Shown here: positions 52,726 to 63,917 of the stretch, piece by piece
How positions within the stretch are numbered: position 1 is the first letter of the stretch
Layout of the letters: each line of letters starts with the position of its first letter
DNA from: Flavobacteriales bacterium
GTDB lineage: Bacteria; Bacteroidota; Bacteroidia; Flavobacteriales_D; Sanyastnellaceae
Assembly: GCA_029245065.1 (NCBI GenBank)
Contig: JAQWQB010000106.1
Span: 1 to 64,000, forward strand
DNA: 64,000 bases
Direction of reading: 5' to 3'
Translations under genes and position numbers: made by a program
The notes under the pieces: generated by a model
What the model was told of the DNA's origin: nothing
The model's database searches: none
Seen by the model: only the letters and a program-made list of their open reading frames with translations

Positions 52726-52811
52726 GTTTTCAATCTGAAGTTGTTTTTTACCTCGTTGAGCACAACAGATTCTGCGTTTTGGAACGTTTATCTTTACCGG
52801 GTAACAACTGC

Positions 52812-55800
52812 ATGTTTCGTTCTAGCTCAAATTCGAAGACCATTTTGCACATCCTTTTGATAGGTGCGTGCCTGGTTTTTGGTGCCTTCGAAATTCAAGC
52901 TCAAGATGTGCCTACGTGGAAGGTGAAAATTCTAGCAGCAGGGACTGACAGCCTGCTTTTGGATGAACGCATTGTTTTGAGCACTTCCATCACCTTTCCA
53001 GAAGACTTTTCCAGCCCTTATTCATTCGACCCAACTACCGGATATTTGCATTTCAATCCGCCGCTAACATCAGCTACAACGGTTCGGTACAGAACACTTG
53101 AGATGAAACGTGATTTCAGCTTCGCGAATAAAGACTCCAGTATGATTCGTCCAACTGGAAGCGCGAACATTAGCCCTTACGTTTACCAAGCAGACCTTTT
53201 TCCCCAAAGTAGTTTCGAACAGAATGGACTTGTGAAGGCAGGTTCTATTTCACGTGGCGTGACCTTCGGGAACAGTCAAGATTTGGCCGTAAACAGCAAC
53301 TTGAACCTTCAATTAAGCGGAAAAATAACAGACCGTTTTCAAGTTCTGGCCAGTATTACAGACGATAACATCCCCATTCAACCCGACGGAAACACGCAAC
53401 AACTCCAGGATTTCGACCAAGTGTACATTCAGGTATTTGATGATCACTCCAGAATTACCGCAGGAGATTTTCAAATCGTAGAACGGGATCACCACTTCTT
53501 ACGCTATCAAAAGAGAGCTCGAGGAGCGACTGCTGAAACGACCTGGGGAGATAGTCTTAATACATTCGGATTGGCTGGAAGCGCTGCCGTTTCAAAAGGG
53601 AAATTCGCCCGAAATATCATTCAAGGGGTGGAAGGAAATCAGGGCCCTTACCGTCTCATTGGCGAGGAAGGCGAACGGTTTATCATTGTTTTGGCAGGAA
53701 CAGAACGCGTTTTTATTGACGGAAGGCTTCTCCAACGGGGGCAAGCGGCAGACTATGTCATTGACTACAACACCTCTGAAGTCACCTTCACCCCTCGTAA
53801 CCTGATTACAAAAGACCGTAGAATTGTTGTGGAGTTTCAGTATTCAGATCGAAACTATGCCCGTTCGCTCATCCAAGGAGAAGCATGGGGTGAGCAAGGC
53901 AAGTATTCTTGGTTTGTTCATGCACTTTCGGAGCAAGACAGCAAGAATCAACCTTTGCAGCAAGACTTGGATTTAGACGATCGTCAATTTTTAGGCAGCG
54001 TGGGCGATAACCTGAATGAAGCAGTCATCAATTCAGTTGACAGCTTGGGCTTTACAGATGACCAAGTGCTCTATGCCGTGCGAGACAGCCTGGGTTATGA
54101 CAGCGTCTTGGTGTTTACTTCTAGTCCAGACAGCGCTTTCTACCGCGCCATTTTCAGCTCAGTAGGCCTGGGAAATGGCGATTATGTTGAAGACGGATTC
54201 ACGGCCAATGGGCGGATCTATAAATGGATCGCCCCAGATACGGTAGACAATGTCATTATTCGAAATGGTGACCACGCTCCCCTTCGGTTGCTAGTGACGC
54301 CCAAACAGCGACAAATGATCACGGGGGGTGGGAAAATTCAATTCTCAGAAGACCACCAACTCACATTTGAGGCCTCTTTCACTCAAAATGATGTCAATAC
54401 CTTTTCGGACCTTGATGCTGGAGACAACGGTGGAATGGCATTTTGGACCGATTGGTCGGCGAAGAAAAAGGTGGGCAATGAGCAGAAAACGAAAATGGGA
54501 GTTCGGCTGTTTCATGAATATGTCCAACAGAATTTTACTGAAATTGAACGTTGGAGATCCGTGGAGTTCGACCGGGATTGGAACATCCGTGGTTTGGAGC
54601 TCTTCAGTGATCAACACGTTGCTGGAACTGCCTTGAGTATTGCCGAAGAAAACCTGTATTCGGTATCGGTTGAAGGAGCGTATTTCAGTTCAGGATCGGC
54701 GTATGAAGGGTACAGAGGAAGCTCGTTGATCAATTACTTAAAAGGAGATCGAAAACTCAATTGGCAGGGGAGTTTCACGCAAAGCGAAGGCTTGGTTAAT
54801 TCGAACTTTATTCGCCAAAAAACGAATTTTCAATGGCCTGTGGGCCCTGTCGTTTTAGGCTACAAAGATGATTTCGAATGGAACCGATTCAGTATTGATG
54901 ACACCTTGACTGCCGCGGCCTATCGCTTTCACGAGTGGCAAACGTTCATTGGTAGCCAACTAGAGCGAAAGCTACAATGGAAAATCTTCTACGGACAACG
55001 AACAGATAAGCTGCCTGCAAACAATGAATTGCTGCTGAGCACAGAGGCTCAAGAATACGGCGTTGAGGGAAGCTTAGCAGGGAAAAACAACCGCAGACTC
55101 ACCTGGAACGCCCGCAGAAGAACACTGGCCGTTTCTGATTCTACCCTTTCCGCAATTCGTCCGGAAGAGACCTTACTAGGCCGTATAGACGCTGGAGCCG
55201 ATTTATTTAAAGGATTGCTCGGCGGTCAGTTATTTTACGAAACGGGTTCTGGACTGGAACAAGCGAGGCAATTCATCTACATTGAAGTCCCCGCAGGTCA
55301 GGGAACGTACGTTTGGGTTGACTACAATGAAGACGGCGTGAAAGACCTAAACGAGTTTGAAATTGCTGCCTTTGCTTATGAGGCCAACTACATTCGAACC
55401 TTCGTCCCTTCAGATGATTACGTCCGCACTTACACCAATCAGTTTTCGCTTTCAACCCAATTGCAACCGGCGCGTATTTGGTCCAACGAGAAAGGATTTA
55501 AGAAGACGTTGGCCAAGTTTTCCAATGTTTTCTCCATCAGACTTGATCGAAAAACCACCCGTGACAAAGGGCTTGACCGGTTGAATCCGCTGGAGACTCA
55601 GCTAGCCGATACCAGTTTGCTCAGCTTGGGTTCTGTCCTTCGAAACACCTTTTCTTTCAACCGTACCAATCCAAATTTTGGAGTCGAATACACTTACCAA
55701 GACCTGGGAAATAAGACTTTGTTGGCCAATGGGTTCGAGTCTCGTTCCGATGAATACCATGAAGTTCGCGTTCGAAAAAAGGTGGTGAATGGTGTTACGG

Positions 55801-56273
55801 CGATTGTCATCAATCAGGTTGGAACCAAAACAGCGAGTTCCGATTTTCTCACGGGGAGAAATTACAGCATTGACTACTTGTCGCTAGAGCCTGAGCTGCA
55901 ATGGCAACCATCTACTAGCTTTCGCCTTACGTTGAAAGGGAGGTATGAATCCAAATTAAACGATGGGGATTTTGGAGGAGAGAAAGCCACTATTTCAGAC
56001 ATTGGAACGGAGCTGCGGTTTTCAGATCCGGGCAAGGGAATATTCAGCCTTGAGTTCCATTACCTTGACATTGCTTACAACGGAAGTGGGAACAATGCCT
56101 TGTCTTTTGAAATGCTGGAGAGTTTGAATGTTGGGCGAAATGCTATTTGGACTGCGGGTGTGCAGCGAAGCATTTCACGTAATCTTCAGCTCAGTTTACT
56201 TTACAACGGACGTACTTCTGAATTGGGCACCGTTATCCATGCTGGGTCTGTTCAAATTCGCGCTACTTTCTAA
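52812..56273 (+). CDS. Very large predicted outer-membrane beta-barrel protein
   Basis: About 1153 residues from ATG 52812 (or 52779). Signal peptide with core ILHILLIGACLVFGAF, a periplasmic region (about 30-110), then an SprA-like look: GSISRGVTFGNSQDLAVNSN, DRFQVLASITDDNIPIQPDG, ADYVIDYNTSEVTFTPRNLI, RRIVVEFQYSDRNYARSLIQ. A long run of amphipathic strands ends GSVQIRATF with terminal Phe, typical of outer-membrane barrels. Mid-protein TYVWVDYNEDGVKDLNEFEI looks like a calcium-binding or dockerin-like loop. It is too short for SprA (over 2000 residues). The family is not known to me. A possible -7 element TATCTTTA lies at 52789-52796. Confidence 0.75.
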   Translation: MFRSSSNSKTILHILLIGACLVFGAFEIQAQDVPTWKVKILAAGTDSLLLDERIVLSTSITFPEDFSSPYSFDPTTGYLHFNPPLTSATTVRYRTLEMKRDFSFANKDSSMIRPTGSANISPYVYQADLFPQSSFEQNGLVKAGSISRGVTFGNSQDLAVNSNLNLQLSGKITDRFQVLASITDDNIPIQPDGNTQQLQDFDQVYIQVFDDHSRITAGDFQIVERDHHFLRYQKRARGATAETTWGDSLNTFGLAGSAAVSKGKFARNIIQGVEGNQGPYRLIGEEGERFIIVLAGTERVFIDGRLLQRGQAADYVIDYNTSEVTFTPRNLITKDRRIVVEFQYSDRNYARSLIQGEAWGEQGKYSWFVHALSEQDSKNQPLQQDLDLDDRQFLGSVGDNLNEAVINSVDSLGFTDDQVLYAVRDSLGYDSVLVFTSSPDSAFYRAIFSSVGLGNGDYVEDGFTANGRIYKWIAPDTVDNVIIRNGDHAPLRLLVTPKQRQMITGGGKIQFSEDHQLTFEASFTQNDVNTFSDLDAGDNGGMAFWTDWSAKKKVGNEQKTKMGVRLFHEYVQQNFTEIERWRSVEFDRDWNIRGLELFSDQHVAGTALSIAEENLYSVSVEGAYFSSGSAYEGYRGSSLINYLKGDRKLNWQGSFTQSEGLVNSNFIRQKTNFQWPVGPVVLGYKDDFEWNRFSIDDTLTAAAYRFHEWQTFIGSQLERKLQWKIFYGQRTDKLPANNELLLSTEAQEYGVEGSLAGKNNRRLTWNARRRTLAVSDSTLSAIRPEETLLGRIDAGADLFKGLLGGQLFYETGSGLEQARQFIYIEVPAGQGTYVWVDYNEDGVKDLNEFEIAAFAYEANYIRTFVPSDDYVRTYTNQFSLSTQLQPARIWSNEKGFKKTLAKFSNVFSIRLDRKTTRDKGLDRLNPLETQLADTSLLSLGSVLRNTFSFNRTNPNFGVEYTYQDLGNKTLLANGFESRSDEYHEVRVRKKVVNGVTAIVINQVGTKTASSDFLTGRNYSIDYLSLEPELQWQPSTSFRLTLKGRYESKLNDGDFGGEKATISDIGTELRFSDPGKGIFSLEFHYLDIAYNGSGNNALSFEMLESLNVGRNAIWTAGVQRSISRNLQLSLLYNGRTSELGTVIHAGSVQIRATF

Positions 56274-56782: not shown

Positions 56783-56906
56783 GGAGCGGTAGGGTTTTGG
56801 AAAGGAACGGTATGGTTTTGCGAAGGAGCGGTTTTGATTTCACCCCAAATGGTCCAAAATACGACGTGAGCGGTAAGGATTTCCCGTGAACGGTAACACC
56901 GGTTTT
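56783..56906 (+). repeat. Tandem ~21-nt degenerate repeats
   Basis: Units start at 56783, 56804, 56825, 56846 (degenerate), 56867 and 56887. Core: G/T-GA-G/A-CGGTA-x-GG-x-TTT. Examples are GGAGCGGTAGGGTTTTGG, GGAACGGTATGGTTTTGC and TGAGCGGTAAGGATTTCC. The spacing is 21, 21, 21, 21 and 20 nt, about two helical turns. It is non-coding and lies 50 nt before the 3' end of the minus-strand gene. Confidence 0.75.
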
Positions 56907-56955: not shown

Positions 56956-58065
56956 TTACTGTCCGCAAATAGCATCAATGAGCTCTTTTGAACGGTCAGC
57001 ATAAAAGCCACCCTCCTCAACAATAGCGTGTAAGAATGAACAGGCTTCTTGGGTTTCTTTAATCTCCACAAGGCCCCAAGCATGATAGAATTCACTCTCC
57101 AGCTTAAACGTTTCAATGGTCAACTCTTTGGATTGTTTTAAGAGCTTAATACTCGTTTCGAATCGATTCAATTCCCTTGCGCACATCCCACCATAGAACA
57201 ACCCATTGGCGTCTTCAGGGAAGTGCTCCAAGATGACATCGAAGCGCTTCATTGCTTTGCGGTACTTACCCAAAGCGAAATATTCCATGGTTTCTTCTAA
57301 GTAGTCAACATAGGCTACTTCCTTGGTATCATTGAATACAACAGTTGTTTTGTCGTCTTTGCTCTTCATGCTTGCAGGAGTTCCCAAATCAGGGTAAAAG
57401 GGAACCTCCCAAGAATTAGTGGTTCGCACTCCTCGGTAATCAACCATTTTGTAGTCCATCACATGATAAATGGGTGCTCCATTCACCATAGGCGCTCTTT
57501 CTTCTGGTGTTTCCTGAACCCCTTCAATGGTTTCAGGCGTTGTGGTTTCAATTGGTTCAAGGGCAGGCAAACGACGAACAAAAACCTCTTCAGGTACTTC
57601 TTCTACTTGTTTCACCTGTTGAGGTGCTTCTTTCATGGTGAACGTCATGCTGCTATCGGTTACTTTTCGTTGGACAATAACCGGGTCTTCAGCAGAAGTT
57701 TCCTTCACAATAGGTTCTTCTGAAGCAACCGCAGCAACCTTCGCCTGACTAAGATTCGAATCCATAGGCGGAGTTGAAGGTGTGAACATGAAAAAACCAA
57801 TGACCGCCAAGGCTAGTAAAGCTGGGGCAATCCACCAATTGGACATACCAGAAGTTGGCTCTTCCAATTGGCTTTTAATCCGATCAATGGTTTCAAAAGC
57901 AGCCGGCGCATCTTCAAGACCTTCCATGGCTTCAAACAGAAACGGATCATCCAGGGCGCGTTGCTCCAACCAATGCGCCTCTTCATTAGAAGCATTCCCT
58001 TCCACATATTTACGCAGAATAGCCTCCTCCTGAGATGGGTCGATATGTAGTGTAGACTTATTCAT
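56956..58065 (-). CDS. Membrane protein with anti-sigma-like N-terminus and TPR C-terminus
   Basis: A 369-residue protein. The N-terminal ~70 residues (EAILRKYVEGNASNEEAHWL, DDPFLFEAMEGL) resemble the anti-sigma start of Bacteroidota proteins. A membrane segment lies at about 75-93 (WWIAPALLALAVIGFFMF), then a long Glu/Pro/Val-rich linker (to about 230) and TPR-like helices (about 255-365; YFALGKYRKAMKRFDVILEH, GLFYGGMCARELNRFETSIK). It overlaps the sigma factor gene by 8 nt, strong support for a regulatory pair. Anti-sigma activity is inferred. Confidence 0.7.
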   Translation of the reverse strand: MNKSTLHIDPSQEEAILRKYVEGNASNEEAHWLEQRALDDPFLFEAMEGLEDAPAAFETIDRIKSQLEEPTSGMSNWWIAPALLALAVIGFFMFTPSTPPMDSNLSQAKVAAVASEEPIVKETSAEDPVIVQRKVTDSSMTFTMKEAPQQVKQVEEVPEEVFVRRLPALEPIETTTPETIEGVQETPEERAPMVNGAPIYHVMDYKMVDYRGVRTTNSWEVPFYPDLGTPASMKSKDDKTTVVFNDTKEVAYVDYLEETMEYFALGKYRKAMKRFDVILEHFPEDANGLFYGGMCARELNRFETSIKLLKQSKELTIETFKLESEFYHAWGLVEIKETQEACSFLHAIVEEGGFYADRSKELIDAICGQ

Positions 58066-58615
58066 TATTGGTCAGCATAAGCTGTAAGTTTCGTTTGCCA
58101 TTTTGCAAGAAGCTCTTTACTTTTTTTAGTTCGAAACCGGTTGTTTCAGCCACTTCTCTATAGCTCTTTTGATCGAGATAGAAGAGTTTAACACACCGCT
58201 GTTGTTCCGGATTAAGTTGCTCTATGGCTTTTTCAAGGGCCACTAAGTTCGCTTCATTTTCGAAAGCAATTTCAAGTGAAGAGGTATCATCTTCAAGTTG
58301 TGTTTCCACGTCTCGAACGAAGGTTTTCTTCTGCTTTCGCAATTGCATTAGGCAATGGTTTCGTGTTACGGTGAACAGCCAAGATTTGAAGTGTTTAACC
58401 TCGTAGTTCTGCAACTCCTTGAGCAATTTCTCAAACACTTGCATTACGGCGTCTTCAGCGTCAGTTTCAGACTTGAGGTACTTCATGCATACACCAAAAG
58501 CGAGGTGGGCATACCTCTTGTAAAGTTCACCCACCACTGCTTTTTTACCATTCTTTCGATAGGCATCAAGCAGTTCATCATCGCTTAATTGTGTTATGCG
58601 TCTTTTGCCAATCAT
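58058..58615 (-). CDS. ECF-type RNA polymerase sigma factor
   Basis: A 185-residue sigma-70 family protein. Region 2 (about 25-95; DAEDAVMQVFEKLLKELQNY, WLFTVTRNHCLMQLR) and region 4 (about 120-175; LNPEQQRCVKLFYLDQKSYR, EVAETTGFELKKVKSFLQNG). No region 3. It follows the plug-domain gene by 14 nt and overlaps the TPR protein gene by 8 nt, forming a compact three-gene operon. Confidence 0.92.
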   Translation of the reverse strand: MIGKRRITQLSDDELLDAYRKNGKKAVVGELYKRYAHLAFGVCMKYLKSETDAEDAVMQVFEKLLKELQNYEVKHFKSWLFTVTRNHCLMQLRKQKKTFVRDVETQLEDDTSSLEIAFENEANLVALEKAIEQLNPEQQRCVKLFYLDQKSYREVAETTGFELKKVKSFLQNGKRNLQLMLTNNE

Positions 58616-58629
58616 TGGCTAGTTCTCTC

Positions 58630-59349
58630 TTATTGCTGTGAATAGTACCATTCGTTGTAAAGGTCAAAATAATTTTTGGACTCTATTACAATTACTCCTC
58701 CTGTAAAATCGCCATACTTTGCAGGCACTCCTCCCGTGTAAACGGAAACACTTCCAATTCCTGAGGCTGGAATGCCGCCAAAGTTACCTTGAACCTTCAT
58801 TCCATCTACAATGTACTGAACTGAGTTTCCTCTTGCTCCACGGAAATGCAGCTCCTGTGTTACCGGATCAATTTTCACGTCTGCTGTCATGGTAGCGATA
58901 ATACCCTTGATATCTCGCTTGGCAGGACTGTTTTTAAGGTCAGCTGCAAGCGTCGTGATTTTTGATGTTTCTTCTGGGTTGATGAGTTTATTCTCATACT
59001 CTACAATAATCGCTTTATCGATCATGACTGCATCATCAGTCAGACGTATATCATCTAACCTCAATGACTGATCTGGCTTGACCAATACTCCAGTCAGTTC
59101 ATGGTTGTTCATTCCGATAAATGACACTTTTAAAGTGTAAGTACCTGGATTCAAAGGCTTAATTCTAAATTGACCATCTAAATCTGTGGCAACTGGCGTT
59201 TGATTGTCGCCTGCTTGCGCAATAACTGTTGCTCCCGGAAGTGGCTGTCCTTGCGCATCAAGCACCACTCCATACAATTCTCCCCAAGTTTGGGCAGCAG
59301 CACCTAGGGCGAAGATCCCAAACAGTGCCATTAACATTAACTTTTTCAT
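58630..59349 (-). CDS. Barrel-less TonB-receptor-type plug protein with carboxypeptidase-regulatory domain
   Basis: A 239-residue exported protein. Signal peptide (1-20, ending GAAAQ), a carboxypeptidase-regulatory-like domain (about 22-105; YGVVLDAQGQPLPGATVIAQ, PVATDLDGQFRIKPLNPGTY) and a plug domain (about 140-225; DIKGIIATMTADVKIDPVTQ, FRGARGNSVQYIVDGMKVQG, VSVYTGGVPAKYGDFTGGVI). Full receptors would continue with a ~600-residue barrel, but this one ends with a stop after NEWYYSQQ. There is no sign of frameshift downstream, only 14 nt to the sigma gene. It appears to be a purpose-built short protein, perhaps a signalling partner of a separate barrel. ATG 59349 starts the signal peptide. 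Confidence 0.82.
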   Translation of the reverse strand: MKKLMLMALFGIFALGAAAQTWGELYGVVLDAQGQPLPGATVIAQAGDNQTPVATDLDGQFRIKPLNPGTYTLKVSFIGMNNHELTGVLVKPDQSLRLDDIRLTDDAVMIDKAIIVEYENKLINPEETSKITTLAADLKNSPAKRDIKGIIATMTADVKIDPVTQELHFRGARGNSVQYIVDGMKVQGNFGGIPASGIGSVSVYTGGVPAKYGDFTGGVIVIESKNYFDLYNEWYYSQQ

Positions 59350-59380: not shown

Positions 59381-59591
59381 GGTTCTCTAAACAAACACCT
59401 TAACTGTGTTTACGTCATTGAGATGCAGCGTACTTTCAAATTCCATAAGCAGTTCGAAAAAAAAATTTCATTCAAGGAAATCCCCATTGTTTGTCGTTCT
59501 AGGATTCAAACAATACCAATTCGTTTAAATCCTTGCGGTACAACCTTTTGAGCCGTAAATTGGTCTTACTAGTGAAACCACACGTTCCGCA

Positions 59592-62500
59592 ATGAAAAAG
59601 TTTACTACTCTGCTACTTTTGGTTATGGTGTCAACACTCGCTGTTGCCCATTCACCTAAGCTTTCATTCGATTTCCGAGCCAACTTCGGACAATGGAATG
59701 ACAACGTTCTTTTCAAGACCTCCATTGGTCCAAGCACCGTATTCCTAGAGTCAAATACCATGACTTGGGTACTAGCTCACCCTGAAGATTATGCCTTGGT
59801 GCATGAAAGTTCGGAGTGGGATAAGGCTACTTTAGACGCTTGGGAATTAAGGGGTCATGCCTACAAAGTTCATTTCGTTGGTGGTTCAACAGCCAATGTG
59901 GTTGGTCAAAATGAACAAAGCGGGTATCACAATTATTTCATTGGAAACGACACTGAAAAATGGGCTTCAAATGTCCCTGCTTTCGGCGCTGTTAGATATG
60001 CCGACGTGTGGGAAGGCATTGGATTACGCGTTTACAATTCTGCCGGACAATTCAAATATGACTTCATTGTAGATGCTGGGACGAACACGAATGCTGTTCA
60101 GCTTTCTTACGAAGGAATAGACGGTATTGAAATCGTTGATGGCAACTTGGTTATCCAAACTTCCGTTGGTGATGTGACCGAACAAGCACCTTATGCCTAT
60201 CAAATGGATGGCAATGAAATGGTGGAAGTGGCTTGCTCTTACGCCCTTGAAGATGGAAAAATGAGTTTCGTTTTTCCTGATGGTTACGACGAAACACGCA
60301 AATTGATTATTGATCCAATCGTAATTGCTTCTACCCTTTCTGGTACGAATGGAAGCGATAACTACGGTCACTGCGCCGCTTATGACATTGCTGGAAACAT
60401 CTATACAGGAGCACGTTCATTCGGAACTGGATACCCTACAGACACTGGTTCTTTCCAAGAAAACTTTGGAAATGGTGGAGGTGGGTTTGGCGTCGACATG
60501 GCGTTCAGTAAACTCAACCCGGAAGGAACTGAATTGATATGGGCAAGCTATTTAGGTGGTGATGGACAAGATCTTCCACACTCAATCATCGCCAATGATT
60601 TTGGCGAACTTTACACCTTCGGAACAAGTGATTCTGGAGATTTCCCTACGACAGACGGTGCCTACTCAGAAACGAACAGTGGAGGAGTTGACATTGCCGT
60701 ATCACACTTCTCTGAAGATGGAACCGCGCTGATTGGAGGAACATTAATTGGTGGGTCTGGGGCCGATGGTCAAAACCAAATCACCACCAACTACGGTGAT
60801 ACGTACCGAGGTGAAATCATCTTGGACTACGACCAAAACCCAGCCATTGCCTCTTGTACGCGTTCAACTGACTTCCCAACTACAGGGGGAGCGTATGAGC
60901 CCAATGCATACGGCAACGACACCGATCAAGATGCGGTTATGTGTAAGTTCAATCCAGAATTGACTTCCCTTACTTGGTCTTCTTACTTTGGAGGAACAGC
61001 TGGAGATGCTGGTTTTGGAATGCGTTTCACCACAGACGGAACGTTCTACATGGCTGGAGGTTCAGCTAGTAACGATCTTGAAGCTACAGCTGGCGCTTAT
61101 CAAACTACAGGAAATGCGGGTGTAAACTCGGGATATATTGCACACTTCAGTGCAGATGCCAACGACTTGCTATCATGCACCTACTATGGTGGTGATGAAG
61201 CAGATAACATCTTCTTTATCGACTTAGATAACGACGAAAATGTGTGGGTTTACGGACAATCTGCCAATGAACTTCCAATCACAGACGGCGTGTATTCCGA
61301 GGAAAACGGAACCCTCTTCGTTACCAAATTCAACCCTGCCCTTACCGAATTAGTTGCTGGCTCAATGGTAGCTGCAGGCACTTGGGGAAGCGGTGGCGTA
61401 CCAATTGCATTCCTGGTAGACCGTTGTGATAACATTTACATCTCTGCACACGGCGCTTCAGGAGATTTAACAACAACAGACGATGCCGTGTACACTGAAG
61501 GTGGTTTCTACCTTGCCGCTTACGGACCTGAAATTGAAACGCTTGAATTTGCTACCTACTACGGGGCGAATCATGTGGATGGTGGAACATCACGTTTCGA
61601 CAAAAATGGAATCATTTATCAGGGTGTTTGCACCATCGGTGGATTCCCGACGAATGCGGATGCATACTCCACAACCCAGGATGGATGGGACATTGGCGTG
61701 TTCAAAATGGACTTTCAAGTGTCAGGGGTAAACGCACAATTGACCGCGAGTGCAGATGCATTGAACGGATGTGCACCGCATAATATTGACTTCAACAACT
61801 ACAGTGTTGGTGATGTATTTGAATGGGATTTTGGAGACGGCTCTCCCATCAACAACGAATTTGAACCAAGTCACACCTACACTGAACCTGGTGTTTACGA
61901 AATTCAGCTGATCAGCTCCGATTCACTTTCTTGCAACTTGGCCGATACAGCTTACTTGGAAATTTCAGTTTCCGAACCAGTTGACTTCAATGCTGCTTTT
62001 GAAGTGGAATTGAATTGCGAAGACCTATCCATCACTACCAACAACCAGACGGGAATTGATTGGTTGGACTACGAATGGGACATGGGCGATGGCACCATCT
62101 TAACAGGTGAAAACGTTGAGCACGTGTACGGTGAGGAAGGAGAGTTTGTCATTAGTTTGAGCGCCGTAGACAACGGATGTATTGCAGATGATCAAGCTGA
62201 GGAGACTGTCCAAATAGTTGGGGCCGTAGAAGCCTCCTCTCTCTTTGATGACTACGAGGGATGTGGTGAACTTGAAATCTCTTTTGATAACACCAGTAAT
62301 GGGGTCACCTACCAGTGGGACTTCGGTGACGGGTCTCCAGTAACAACTGAAGAGAACCCAACACATACCTTTGGCCCAGGCCAATATGAGGTTCAACTGA
62401 CTGCCTTCCACCCTGAAAGTTGCAACCTAGAAGACGATACCACATTGATGGTGACTGTTGGTGAAGATCAATTCATTGAAGCGGCCTTCCAATTGCTGCA

Positions 62501-63917
62501 AACAGATTGCGAAGCGCTGCTAGTAGAAGGAACCAACCAAAGTATTGGTGACCACCTAGCCTTCGTTTGGGATATGGGAGACGGCACTACTTACGACACT
62601 CAAGACATTACCCACAATTACGGCGCAACAGGGCCTTACGATGTAGAACTTCTTATCACAGATACACTTTGTGATGCCACAGACACACAGCTTTTATCTA
62701 TCAATGTGTTAACTGAAGTAACGGCTATCATTGGCAATCCAAACATTGAAGGATGCCATCCTTTTGTAGCTGAATTTTCAAATAACAGTGCCGGTATAAA
62801 CTTCTTCTGGGATTTTGGCGACGGCTCACCAATTGTAGAAGCACAAGTTGCGGAATACGAATACGCCGACCCAGGAGTGTATGAAGTTACACTCACTGTA
62901 GAAGGTGTTGGAAATTGTGGAGGAACAGACGTTACCACCGCTACCGTAACGGTTATTGAAACACCCGAAATTGACGCCCTGTTTACTATGGAGCAAGAAG
63001 GTGCCTGCGAAGCCATGACGGTAGATTTCGACAATGAAAGTACCGGTGACAACCTCTCTTATGTTTGGGATGTAGATGGCATTGAATATACCGTAGCGGA
63101 ATTCGAGCATATCTTTACTGGACCCGGGAACTACAACATTACACTTTCGATTTCTGAGCCCGTTTGTGATGCTACTGACTCCTTTTCAGATAACATTGAA
63201 GTACTCCAAGGCATCGAACTAGTTGCACCGGAAGACACGTACATGTGTTACTACCAGGAGCAAATAGGGCTTCAAGTTCAAGGCCCTGCTGAAGCTGAAT
63301 ATGTTTGGGACAATGACGACCAAGGGTTGAGCACGGTGGTAACGGAACCAGGCATTTACACCCTGACTGCCACGTTGAATAACTGTACAGACGCTGTTGG
63401 TCTGGAAGTAATTCCAGTTGCTGAACTCGCTTTGTTGGACACTCCTAGGGCTTGTGAAGGACTTCAGACACTATTGGAAATCCCGTACGACAACGGTACG
63501 AACTACACGTGGTGCAACGGAGAAGCAGCTGATTTTATCTACGCTTCAGAAGCAGGAGAATACTGCTACCAATTTATTGATGAATACGGTTGTGCTCAAG
63601 AAGGATTGGTTGTTCTAGAACACATTTCGATGGATGCAGAAGTATTTGTTCCGAACGCATTCACGCCAAACAACGATGGAATAAACGATGTGTTCCAGCC
63701 AGTTGGCAAGGATGTACGTGACTACAGGCTGACGGTTTGGAATAGATGGGGAGACCTTGTTTTCGAAACAGAGAGCACAGAAGCTTTCTGGGACGGTACA
63801 TACAATGGAAGTAACCACTACGTACAAAACGAAGAGTACACTTACCGCATTGAATACAACGGCACCTGCAACGCTGAGAAAATCTTGGTAGTTGGAAACG
63901 TACTATTGATGAGATAG
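59592..63917 (+). CDS. Giant SBBP/PKD surface protein with T9SS type B sorting domain
   Basis: A 1441-residue exported protein. Signal peptide (1-19), an N-terminal domain of the DUF7948 kind (about 22-235; FRANFGQWNDNVLFKTSIGP, HNYFIGNDTEKWASNVPAFG), and SBBP-type beta-propeller repeats (about 240-710; ELIWASYLGGDGQDLPHSII, LTWSSYFGGTAGDAGFGMRF). At least six PKD modules follow (about 720-1210; FEWDFGDGSP, YEWDMGDGTILTG, YQWDFGDGSPVTT, FVWDMGDGTTYDT), then a Cys-containing Ig-like part and a type B sorting domain (FVPNAFTPNNDGINDVFQPV, VWNRWGDLVFETE). It is likely a T9SS-exported adhesin or gliding-associated protein. Confidence 0.9.
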   Translation: MKKFTTLLLLVMVSTLAVAHSPKLSFDFRANFGQWNDNVLFKTSIGPSTVFLESNTMTWVLAHPEDYALVHESSEWDKATLDAWELRGHAYKVHFVGGSTANVVGQNEQSGYHNYFIGNDTEKWASNVPAFGAVRYADVWEGIGLRVYNSAGQFKYDFIVDAGTNTNAVQLSYEGIDGIEIVDGNLVIQTSVGDVTEQAPYAYQMDGNEMVEVACSYALEDGKMSFVFPDGYDETRKLIIDPIVIASTLSGTNGSDNYGHCAAYDIAGNIYTGARSFGTGYPTDTGSFQENFGNGGGGFGVDMAFSKLNPEGTELIWASYLGGDGQDLPHSIIANDFGELYTFGTSDSGDFPTTDGAYSETNSGGVDIAVSHFSEDGTALIGGTLIGGSGADGQNQITTNYGDTYRGEIILDYDQNPAIASCTRSTDFPTTGGAYEPNAYGNDTDQDAVMCKFNPELTSLTWSSYFGGTAGDAGFGMRFTTDGTFYMAGGSASNDLEATAGAYQTTGNAGVNSGYIAHFSADANDLLSCTYYGGDEADNIFFIDLDNDENVWVYGQSANELPITDGVYSEENGTLFVTKFNPALTELVAGSMVAAGTWGSGGVPIAFLVDRCDNIYISAHGASGDLTTTDDAVYTEGGFYLAAYGPEIETLEFATYYGANHVDGGTSRFDKNGIIYQGVCTIGGFPTNADAYSTTQDGWDIGVFKMDFQVSGVNAQLTASADALNGCAPHNIDFNNYSVGDVFEWDFGDGSPINNEFEPSHTYTEPGVYEIQLISSDSLSCNLADTAYLEISVSEPVDFNAAFEVELNCEDLSITTNNQTGIDWLDYEWDMGDGTILTGENVEHVYGEEGEFVISLSAVDNGCIADDQAEETVQIVGAVEASSLFDDYEGCGELEISFDNTSNGVTYQWDFGDGSPVTTEENPTHTFGPGQYEVQLTAFHPESCNLEDDTTLMVTVGEDQFIEAAFQLLQTDCEALLVEGTNQSIGDHLAFVWDMGDGTTYDTQDITHNYGATGPYDVELLITDTLCDATDTQLLSINVLTEVTAIIGNPNIEGCHPFVAEFSNNSAGINFFWDFGDGSPIVEAQVAEYEYADPGVYEVTLTVEGVGNCGGTDVTTATVTVIETPEIDALFTMEQEGACEAMTVDFDNESTGDNLSYVWDVDGIEYTVAEFEHIFTGPGNYNITLSISEPVCDATDSFSDNIEVLQGIELVAPEDTYMCYYQEQIGLQVQGPAEAEYVWDNDDQGLSTVVTEPGIYTLTATLNNCTDAVGLEVIPVAELALLDTPRACEGLQTLLEIPYDNGTNYTWCNGEAADFIYASEAGEYCYQFIDEYGCAQEGLVVLEHISMDAEVFVPNAFTPNNDGINDVFQPVGKDVRDYRLTVWNRWGDLVFETESTEAFWDGTYNGSNHYVQNEEYTYRIEYNGTCNAEKILVVGNVLLMR

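Follow-up and report, generated by a model that had tools for sequence, protein, structure and literature searches.

In the 64,000-nucleotide stretch of Flavobacteriales DNA analysed here (the window), a three-gene operon on the minus strand (59349–56956) encodes a plug-only protein related to TonB receptors, an ECF sigma factor, and a TPR protein with a single membrane span. We consider the chances about even that these genes constitute an envelope switch, in which an ECF sigma factor and a membrane anti-sigma factor govern their own operon, headed by a receptor plug that lacks a barrel. Sequence comparison with related genomes supports the operon, the conserved length and single origin of the plug-only protein, the promoter and its regulon, and the link to a further protein family, F2. 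The conserved promoter, the regulon and the assignment of F2 as a fourth core component are new from the present analysis, and were overlooked in the earlier sequence-only reading of the same DNA.

The operon and its products

The sequence-only reading had described three tightly packed open reading frames, and these are indeed present (Table 1). The plug gene starts with the ATG at 59349 and is terminated by a TAA codon after the plug domain and a C-terminal helix; the sigma gene starts 14 nt past this stop, and the third gene overlaps the sigma gene by 8 nt. Profile matches bear out the earlier description of the first product as a signal peptide, a CarboxypepD_reg domain and a plug, followed by a stop without a barrel. 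The CarboxypepD_reg match has an E value of 1.4e-18, and the match to TonB Plug (PF07715) covers profile positions 15–107 of 107 with an E value of 1.5e-7, above the gathering score. The 22-strand beta-barrel of a TonB-dependent receptor is absent from the polypeptide, and in all aligned homologues the stop follows the plug. A structure model of the protein has low overall confidence (pTM 0.43), and its best 50 structural matches are mainly to the NTE domain.

The sigma factor consists of Sigma70_r2 and r4_2 with no region 3 (PF04542, PF08281 and TIGR02937 above cut-off), and NCBIfam equivalogs, e.g., sigma_PG0214, score below cut-off. As for ECF factors in general, it appears by comparison to have a promoter of its own, with a fixed −35/−10 spacing common to the regulon. 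In the predicted structure of the third protein, four confident helices (10–68) precede the TM helix, which is followed by about 95 mostly disordered, low-complexity residues (100–194) and a TPR domain, the latter with sub-threshold TPR profile matches. The cytoplasmic helical N-terminus, the one TM helix and the periplasmic C-terminus reproduce, as predicted architecture only, the layout of an anti-sigma factor, in agreement with the earlier view of an anti-sigma-like membrane protein. Because the N-terminal domain has no significant match to any known anti-sigma family, and sub-threshold zf-HC2 and anti-sigma matches occur in 2 of 17 family members, sigma binding itself is something we infer; the modelled layout is that of an anti-sigma factor anchored in the membrane and reading the periplasm.

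Table 1. Positions in the window of the operon, its promoter and the predicted domains of its products
Feature	Position	Strand	Description
ECF-type promoter TTATGGAATTTGAAAGTACGCTGCATC	59422..59448	−	−35 TATGGAA, −10 CATC, GGAA/CATC gap 15 nt; 72 nt upstream of plug ATG
Plug-only protein, 239 aa	58630..59349	−	Signal peptide 1–20, CarboxypepD_reg (NTE-like) 25–104, plug 136–219, C-terminal helix, stop; no barrel
CarboxypepD_reg / SusC NTE-like domain of plug-only protein	59038..59277	−	Profile match and Foldseek match to 9hfj (NTE of BT3090)
TonB-receptor plug domain of plug-only protein	58693..58944	−	PF07715; RG, DG and GGxPAKYGDxTGG motifs in common with receptors
ECF sigma factor, 185 aa	58058..58615	−	Sigma70 regions 2 and 4
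Putative anti-sigma factor (third protein), 369 aa	56956..58065	−	Predicted cytoplasmic four-helix N-terminus, one TM helix, disordered linker, periplasmic TPR
Predicted sigma-binding helical domain of third protein, residues 10–68	57862..58038	−	pLDDT mostly >90; no significant family match
TM helix of third protein, residues 79–94	57784..57831	−	Structure model and direct sequence reading
Predicted periplasmic TPR domain of third protein, residues 247–366	56968..57327	−	Predicted structure

Two neighbouring genes were considered as additional parts of the operon, and rejected because they are adjacent to it in few relatives only. The divergent gene at 59592–63917 (plus strand) encodes a 1441-aa DUF7948/PKD/CHU_C (T9SS type B) protein and adjoins the operon only in the closest relatives. 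The gene at 52779–56273 (plus strand) encodes a ~1,160-aa exported, possibly barrel-like protein with no Pfam or NCBIfam match; in two further genomes, homologues lie close to the plug operon. The convergent intergenic region past the third gene (56784–56895) contains GAGCGGT/GAACGGT heptamers at 56784, 56805, 56826 and 56868, spaced by multiples of 21 bp; the only other strict heptamer pair in the genome (G000:C31:7698) is located just upstream of a 172-aa ORF.

Promoter and regulon

The operon is preceded by a conserved ECF-type promoter, TTTATGGAAT-N14-GCATC, and the upstream regions of close relatives have TTATGGAAT...GCATC in common. One strict match within 64 kb carries no significance of its own, and the case for the promoter therefore rests on position and conservation. 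GGAA-N15-CATC is found before 36 of the 75 sigma-linked plug genes, whereas none of the other spacings between 10 and 20 gives more than four. A weight matrix scores 59 of the 75 sigma-linked promoters above the 99% level of shuffled sequence and 16 below it, and some of the promoters have N14 spacing or a diverged −35. Because the 38 sites used to build the matrix are the exact-core subset of these same promoters, independent evidence comes from counting spacings and from testing other genes.

Split operons are informative in this respect. In G044, where the plug is located on contig 16 and the sigma–TPR pair on contig 35, the motif is present before both halves. The same applies to G357, where three plug-only genes stand in tandem (L116:4083–6487, the third one diverged) and the sigma–TPR pair, far off on another contig, has a 37.7-bit site; in G046, sigma and the second plug copy each have a site in front. 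Where sigma is missing, at L048, L050, L103, L121, L123, L133 and L141, the plug has no site ahead of it; loci of the clade formed by G019, G035 and G358–G362 retain an intact plug gene that lacks the motif. These comparisons make a strong case that the sigma factor of the operon recognises the motif. One 31.5-bit copy, inside the sigma coding sequence of G353 (L353:1253, minus strand), was counted against the model.

The genome to which the window belongs contains four strict sites, all of them 19–72 nt before genes for CarboxypepD_reg proteins, and a reversed control pattern gives none. Besides the plug operon, the genes encode two F1 proteins (contigs 64 and 81) and one F3 protein (contig 8). 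F1 proteins have an N-terminal FCxxC-type Cys motif and a likely TM helix ahead of the CarboxypepD_reg domain; the F1 proteins of L227, L230, L240, L244 and L251 are candidates for the same regulon. F3 is a DUF4139 protein into which a CarboxypepD_reg domain is inserted; it occurs both with and without the system, and its gene has a site in 6/8 plug-positive versus 0/6 plug-negative genomes. Over all 60 related genomes searched, 115 strict sites fall in the 29 TPR-positive and 44 in the 31 TPR-negative genomes. By comparison, the motif marks a small regulon, composed mostly of CarboxypepD_reg (SusC NTE-like) proteins.

F2, a protein of ~410–440 aa, begins with an NTE-like region and otherwise matches no Pfam family. 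Its gene is preceded by a related site, TTTTGTGGATTTTTGTTTCATTCTGCATCTC, on contig 78 of the window's genome, and in most other relatives by a site at p=0.005–0.010. F2 tracks the plug across the 60 relatives (30/2/3/25, shared ancestry left in), is the fourth gene of a plug–sigma–TPR–F2 operon in ten distant loci, and directly follows the plug in four more, which makes it a fourth core component of the system.

Origin, distribution and role of the plug-only protein

Plug-only homologues were found in about half of the 60 genomes, most of the data being metagenome-assembled genomes (MAGs). The TPR protein is present in 29 of the 60 relatives, always together with a plug-only protein, and in 0/28 genomes that have no plug (29/3/0/28, with shared ancestry likewise retained in the counts). 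A sigma gene adjoins the plug at 75 of 91 distinct loci, and a short plug ORF has both sigma and TPR genes beside it at 83 of 112 loci before de-duplication, a set in which some contigs were fetched twice. The plug gene is the first of the operon in nearly all loci. These belong mostly to Flavobacteriales MAGs, with Cryomorpha ignava (L126) as a cultured member, and some to Bacteroidales/Marinilabiliales MAGs. In a phylum-wide sample of 296 genomes, the plug-only protein is above cut-off in only three, all from the window's own order; the remaining matches are receptors.

The suggestion in the sequence-only reading that the three genes form a variant signalling system is strengthened by the conservation, in relatives down to 33–40% identity, of both the plug length (232–251 aa in 33 aligned proteins, after start-site curation) and the gene order, by a self-promoter that joins the three genes, and by the anti-sigma layout of the third protein. 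Neither of the outcomes which that reading had named as refuting it, homologues with a barrel or an unconserved gene order, was obtained. A plug acting solely as sensor fares less well. In the clade mentioned above, no TPR gene was found and no sigma gene stands beside the plug, yet the plug gene is intact, and F2 is also retained in G019 and G035, the members checked. A plug that outlasts its regulator is more readily seen as an output than as only a sensor, and because of this pattern we read the plug-only protein as output first and input second.

In the mechanism that we propose, the cytoplasmic four-helix N-terminus of the third protein would most likely hold the sigma factor at the inner membrane, while its TPR domain, tethered by a long flexible linker, would read the periplasm. 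Once released, the sigma factor would use the conserved promoters to transcribe both the operon that encodes it and a few further envelope genes, with the plug-only protein and F2 as core outputs, and F1 and F3 as lineage-specific ones. The plug-only protein would most likely be exported as an output and act on receptor barrels or TonB from the periplasmic side of the outer membrane. It may also feed back on the TPR domain, in analogy to FecA, whose signalling domain works via the periplasmic portion of FecR and inhibits induction when an excess of it is produced separately (PMC9249621).

Two alternatives that deny the plug-only protein an identity of its own are both extremely improbable. Its domains follow the same order as those at the start of a ~1,228-aa receptor encoded elsewhere in the window's genome, as might be expected for a decayed or truncated receptor beside an unrelated sigma operon. 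The nearest receptors, ~1,230-aa proteins with the same NTE–plug start, occur in most of the 60 genomes. In a tree of the 33 plug-only proteins and 40 receptor plugs, however, the two groups lie on opposite sides of a 100/100-supported branch, so that the plug-only protein most likely split off once from an NTE–plug receptor lineage, and was then kept. Conserved length and single origin, together with conserved motifs, gene order and promoter, refute decay, and the protein instead represents an old, conserved gene family in environmental Bacteroidota. The Plug of the type IX secretion translocon (SprA/Sov), here under sigma control, shares its everyday name with this free protein and is found in the same phylum, where it closes a large barrel (PMC9127263, PMC10994853); its loss causes no gliding or secretion defect (PMC9127263). 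This identity was rejected, since no T9SS Plug chain (Fjoh_1759/PG2092) was matched in PDB sequence and profile searches at the thresholds used, and none is among the best 50 fold matches. Nor is membership of a sigma operon described in the cited T9SS literature (PMC9127263, PMC10994853).

More weight must be given to the possibility that the plug-only protein is an input subunit, whose NTE or plug touches the TPR domain of the anti-sigma factor, such that docking in or release from a receptor barrel switches the sigma factor on. Its leading position in the operon, its near-perfect co-occurrence with the TPR protein and the FecA precedent are all compatible with such a role. Persistence of the plug where the TPR gene is missing, the tandem copies far from sigma in G357, and the presence of an NTE (CarboxypepD_reg) in place of an STN signalling domain count against it, and we consider it a possible but rather unlikely explanation. 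Alternatively, the plug could be a soluble periplasmic decoy or competitor, made as an output of envelope stress to occupy TonB or to seal barrels that leak or lack a plug, with no signalling role. The output-like retention of the plug would suit a decoy, as would the hydrophobic TonB-box-like strand before PLI that persists in plug-only proteins, and cork and barrel of FhuA, when exported separately, reportedly reassemble. The TonB-box region is, however, much more degenerate than in receptors, and no plugless barrel partner was found adjoining the operon, which makes a pure decoy doubtful. Returning to the plug as sigma-controlled output, it is conceivable, if quite improbable in our judgement, that the free plug acts in trans on receptor barrels or TonB as a diffusible gate that determines which barrels are open, and that together with F2 and other NTE-domain proteins it forms a barrel-less branch of the TonB-receptor superfamily.

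Comparison with known systems

No description of plug-only proteins or of the plug–sigma–TPR gene order was encountered in the literature searched, which was not exhaustive. The plug of TonB receptors is usually studied within the barrel; here numerous lineages of Bacteroidota, many of them uncultured and a few cultured, have kept it as a separate gene that comes with a transcription switch of its own. The capabilities of a plug or NTE domain alone thereby become directly testable, the promoter motif supplies a ready list of co-regulated envelope genes (F1, F2 and F3), and the system offers a distribution test that tells regulator from output.

In its proposed mode of action the system resembles ECF/anti-sigma envelope signalling, but it does not belong to the Fec type. 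In common with FecI/FecR/FecA, it has an ECF sigma factor, an anti-sigma-like protein that crosses the membrane once and ends in the periplasm, and a component related to TonB receptors. Unlike the Fec system, it has neither barrel nor STN domain, a TPR domain replaces the periplasmic domain of FecR, and the sigma factor would drive its whole own operon together with a regulon of NTE-domain proteins. Profile searches accordingly find CarboxypepD_reg and TPR where Fec-type systems have STN on the receptor and an anti-sigma factor of the FecR family.

SusC/RagA and the ~1,230-aa CarboxypepD_reg receptors share with the plug-only protein the signal peptide, the NTE, the TonB-box-like strand, and a plug with RG, DG and GGxPAKYGD-like motifs; they differ in that the plug-only protein stops after the plug and forms its own clade. 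Similarities are also noted with ECF/anti-sigma stress pairs of the RpoE/RseA type, i.e., an autoregulated ECF operon, a membrane anti-sigma factor and a small envelope regulon, whereas the promoter sequence, the TPR sensor domain and the plug output of the present system are distinct.
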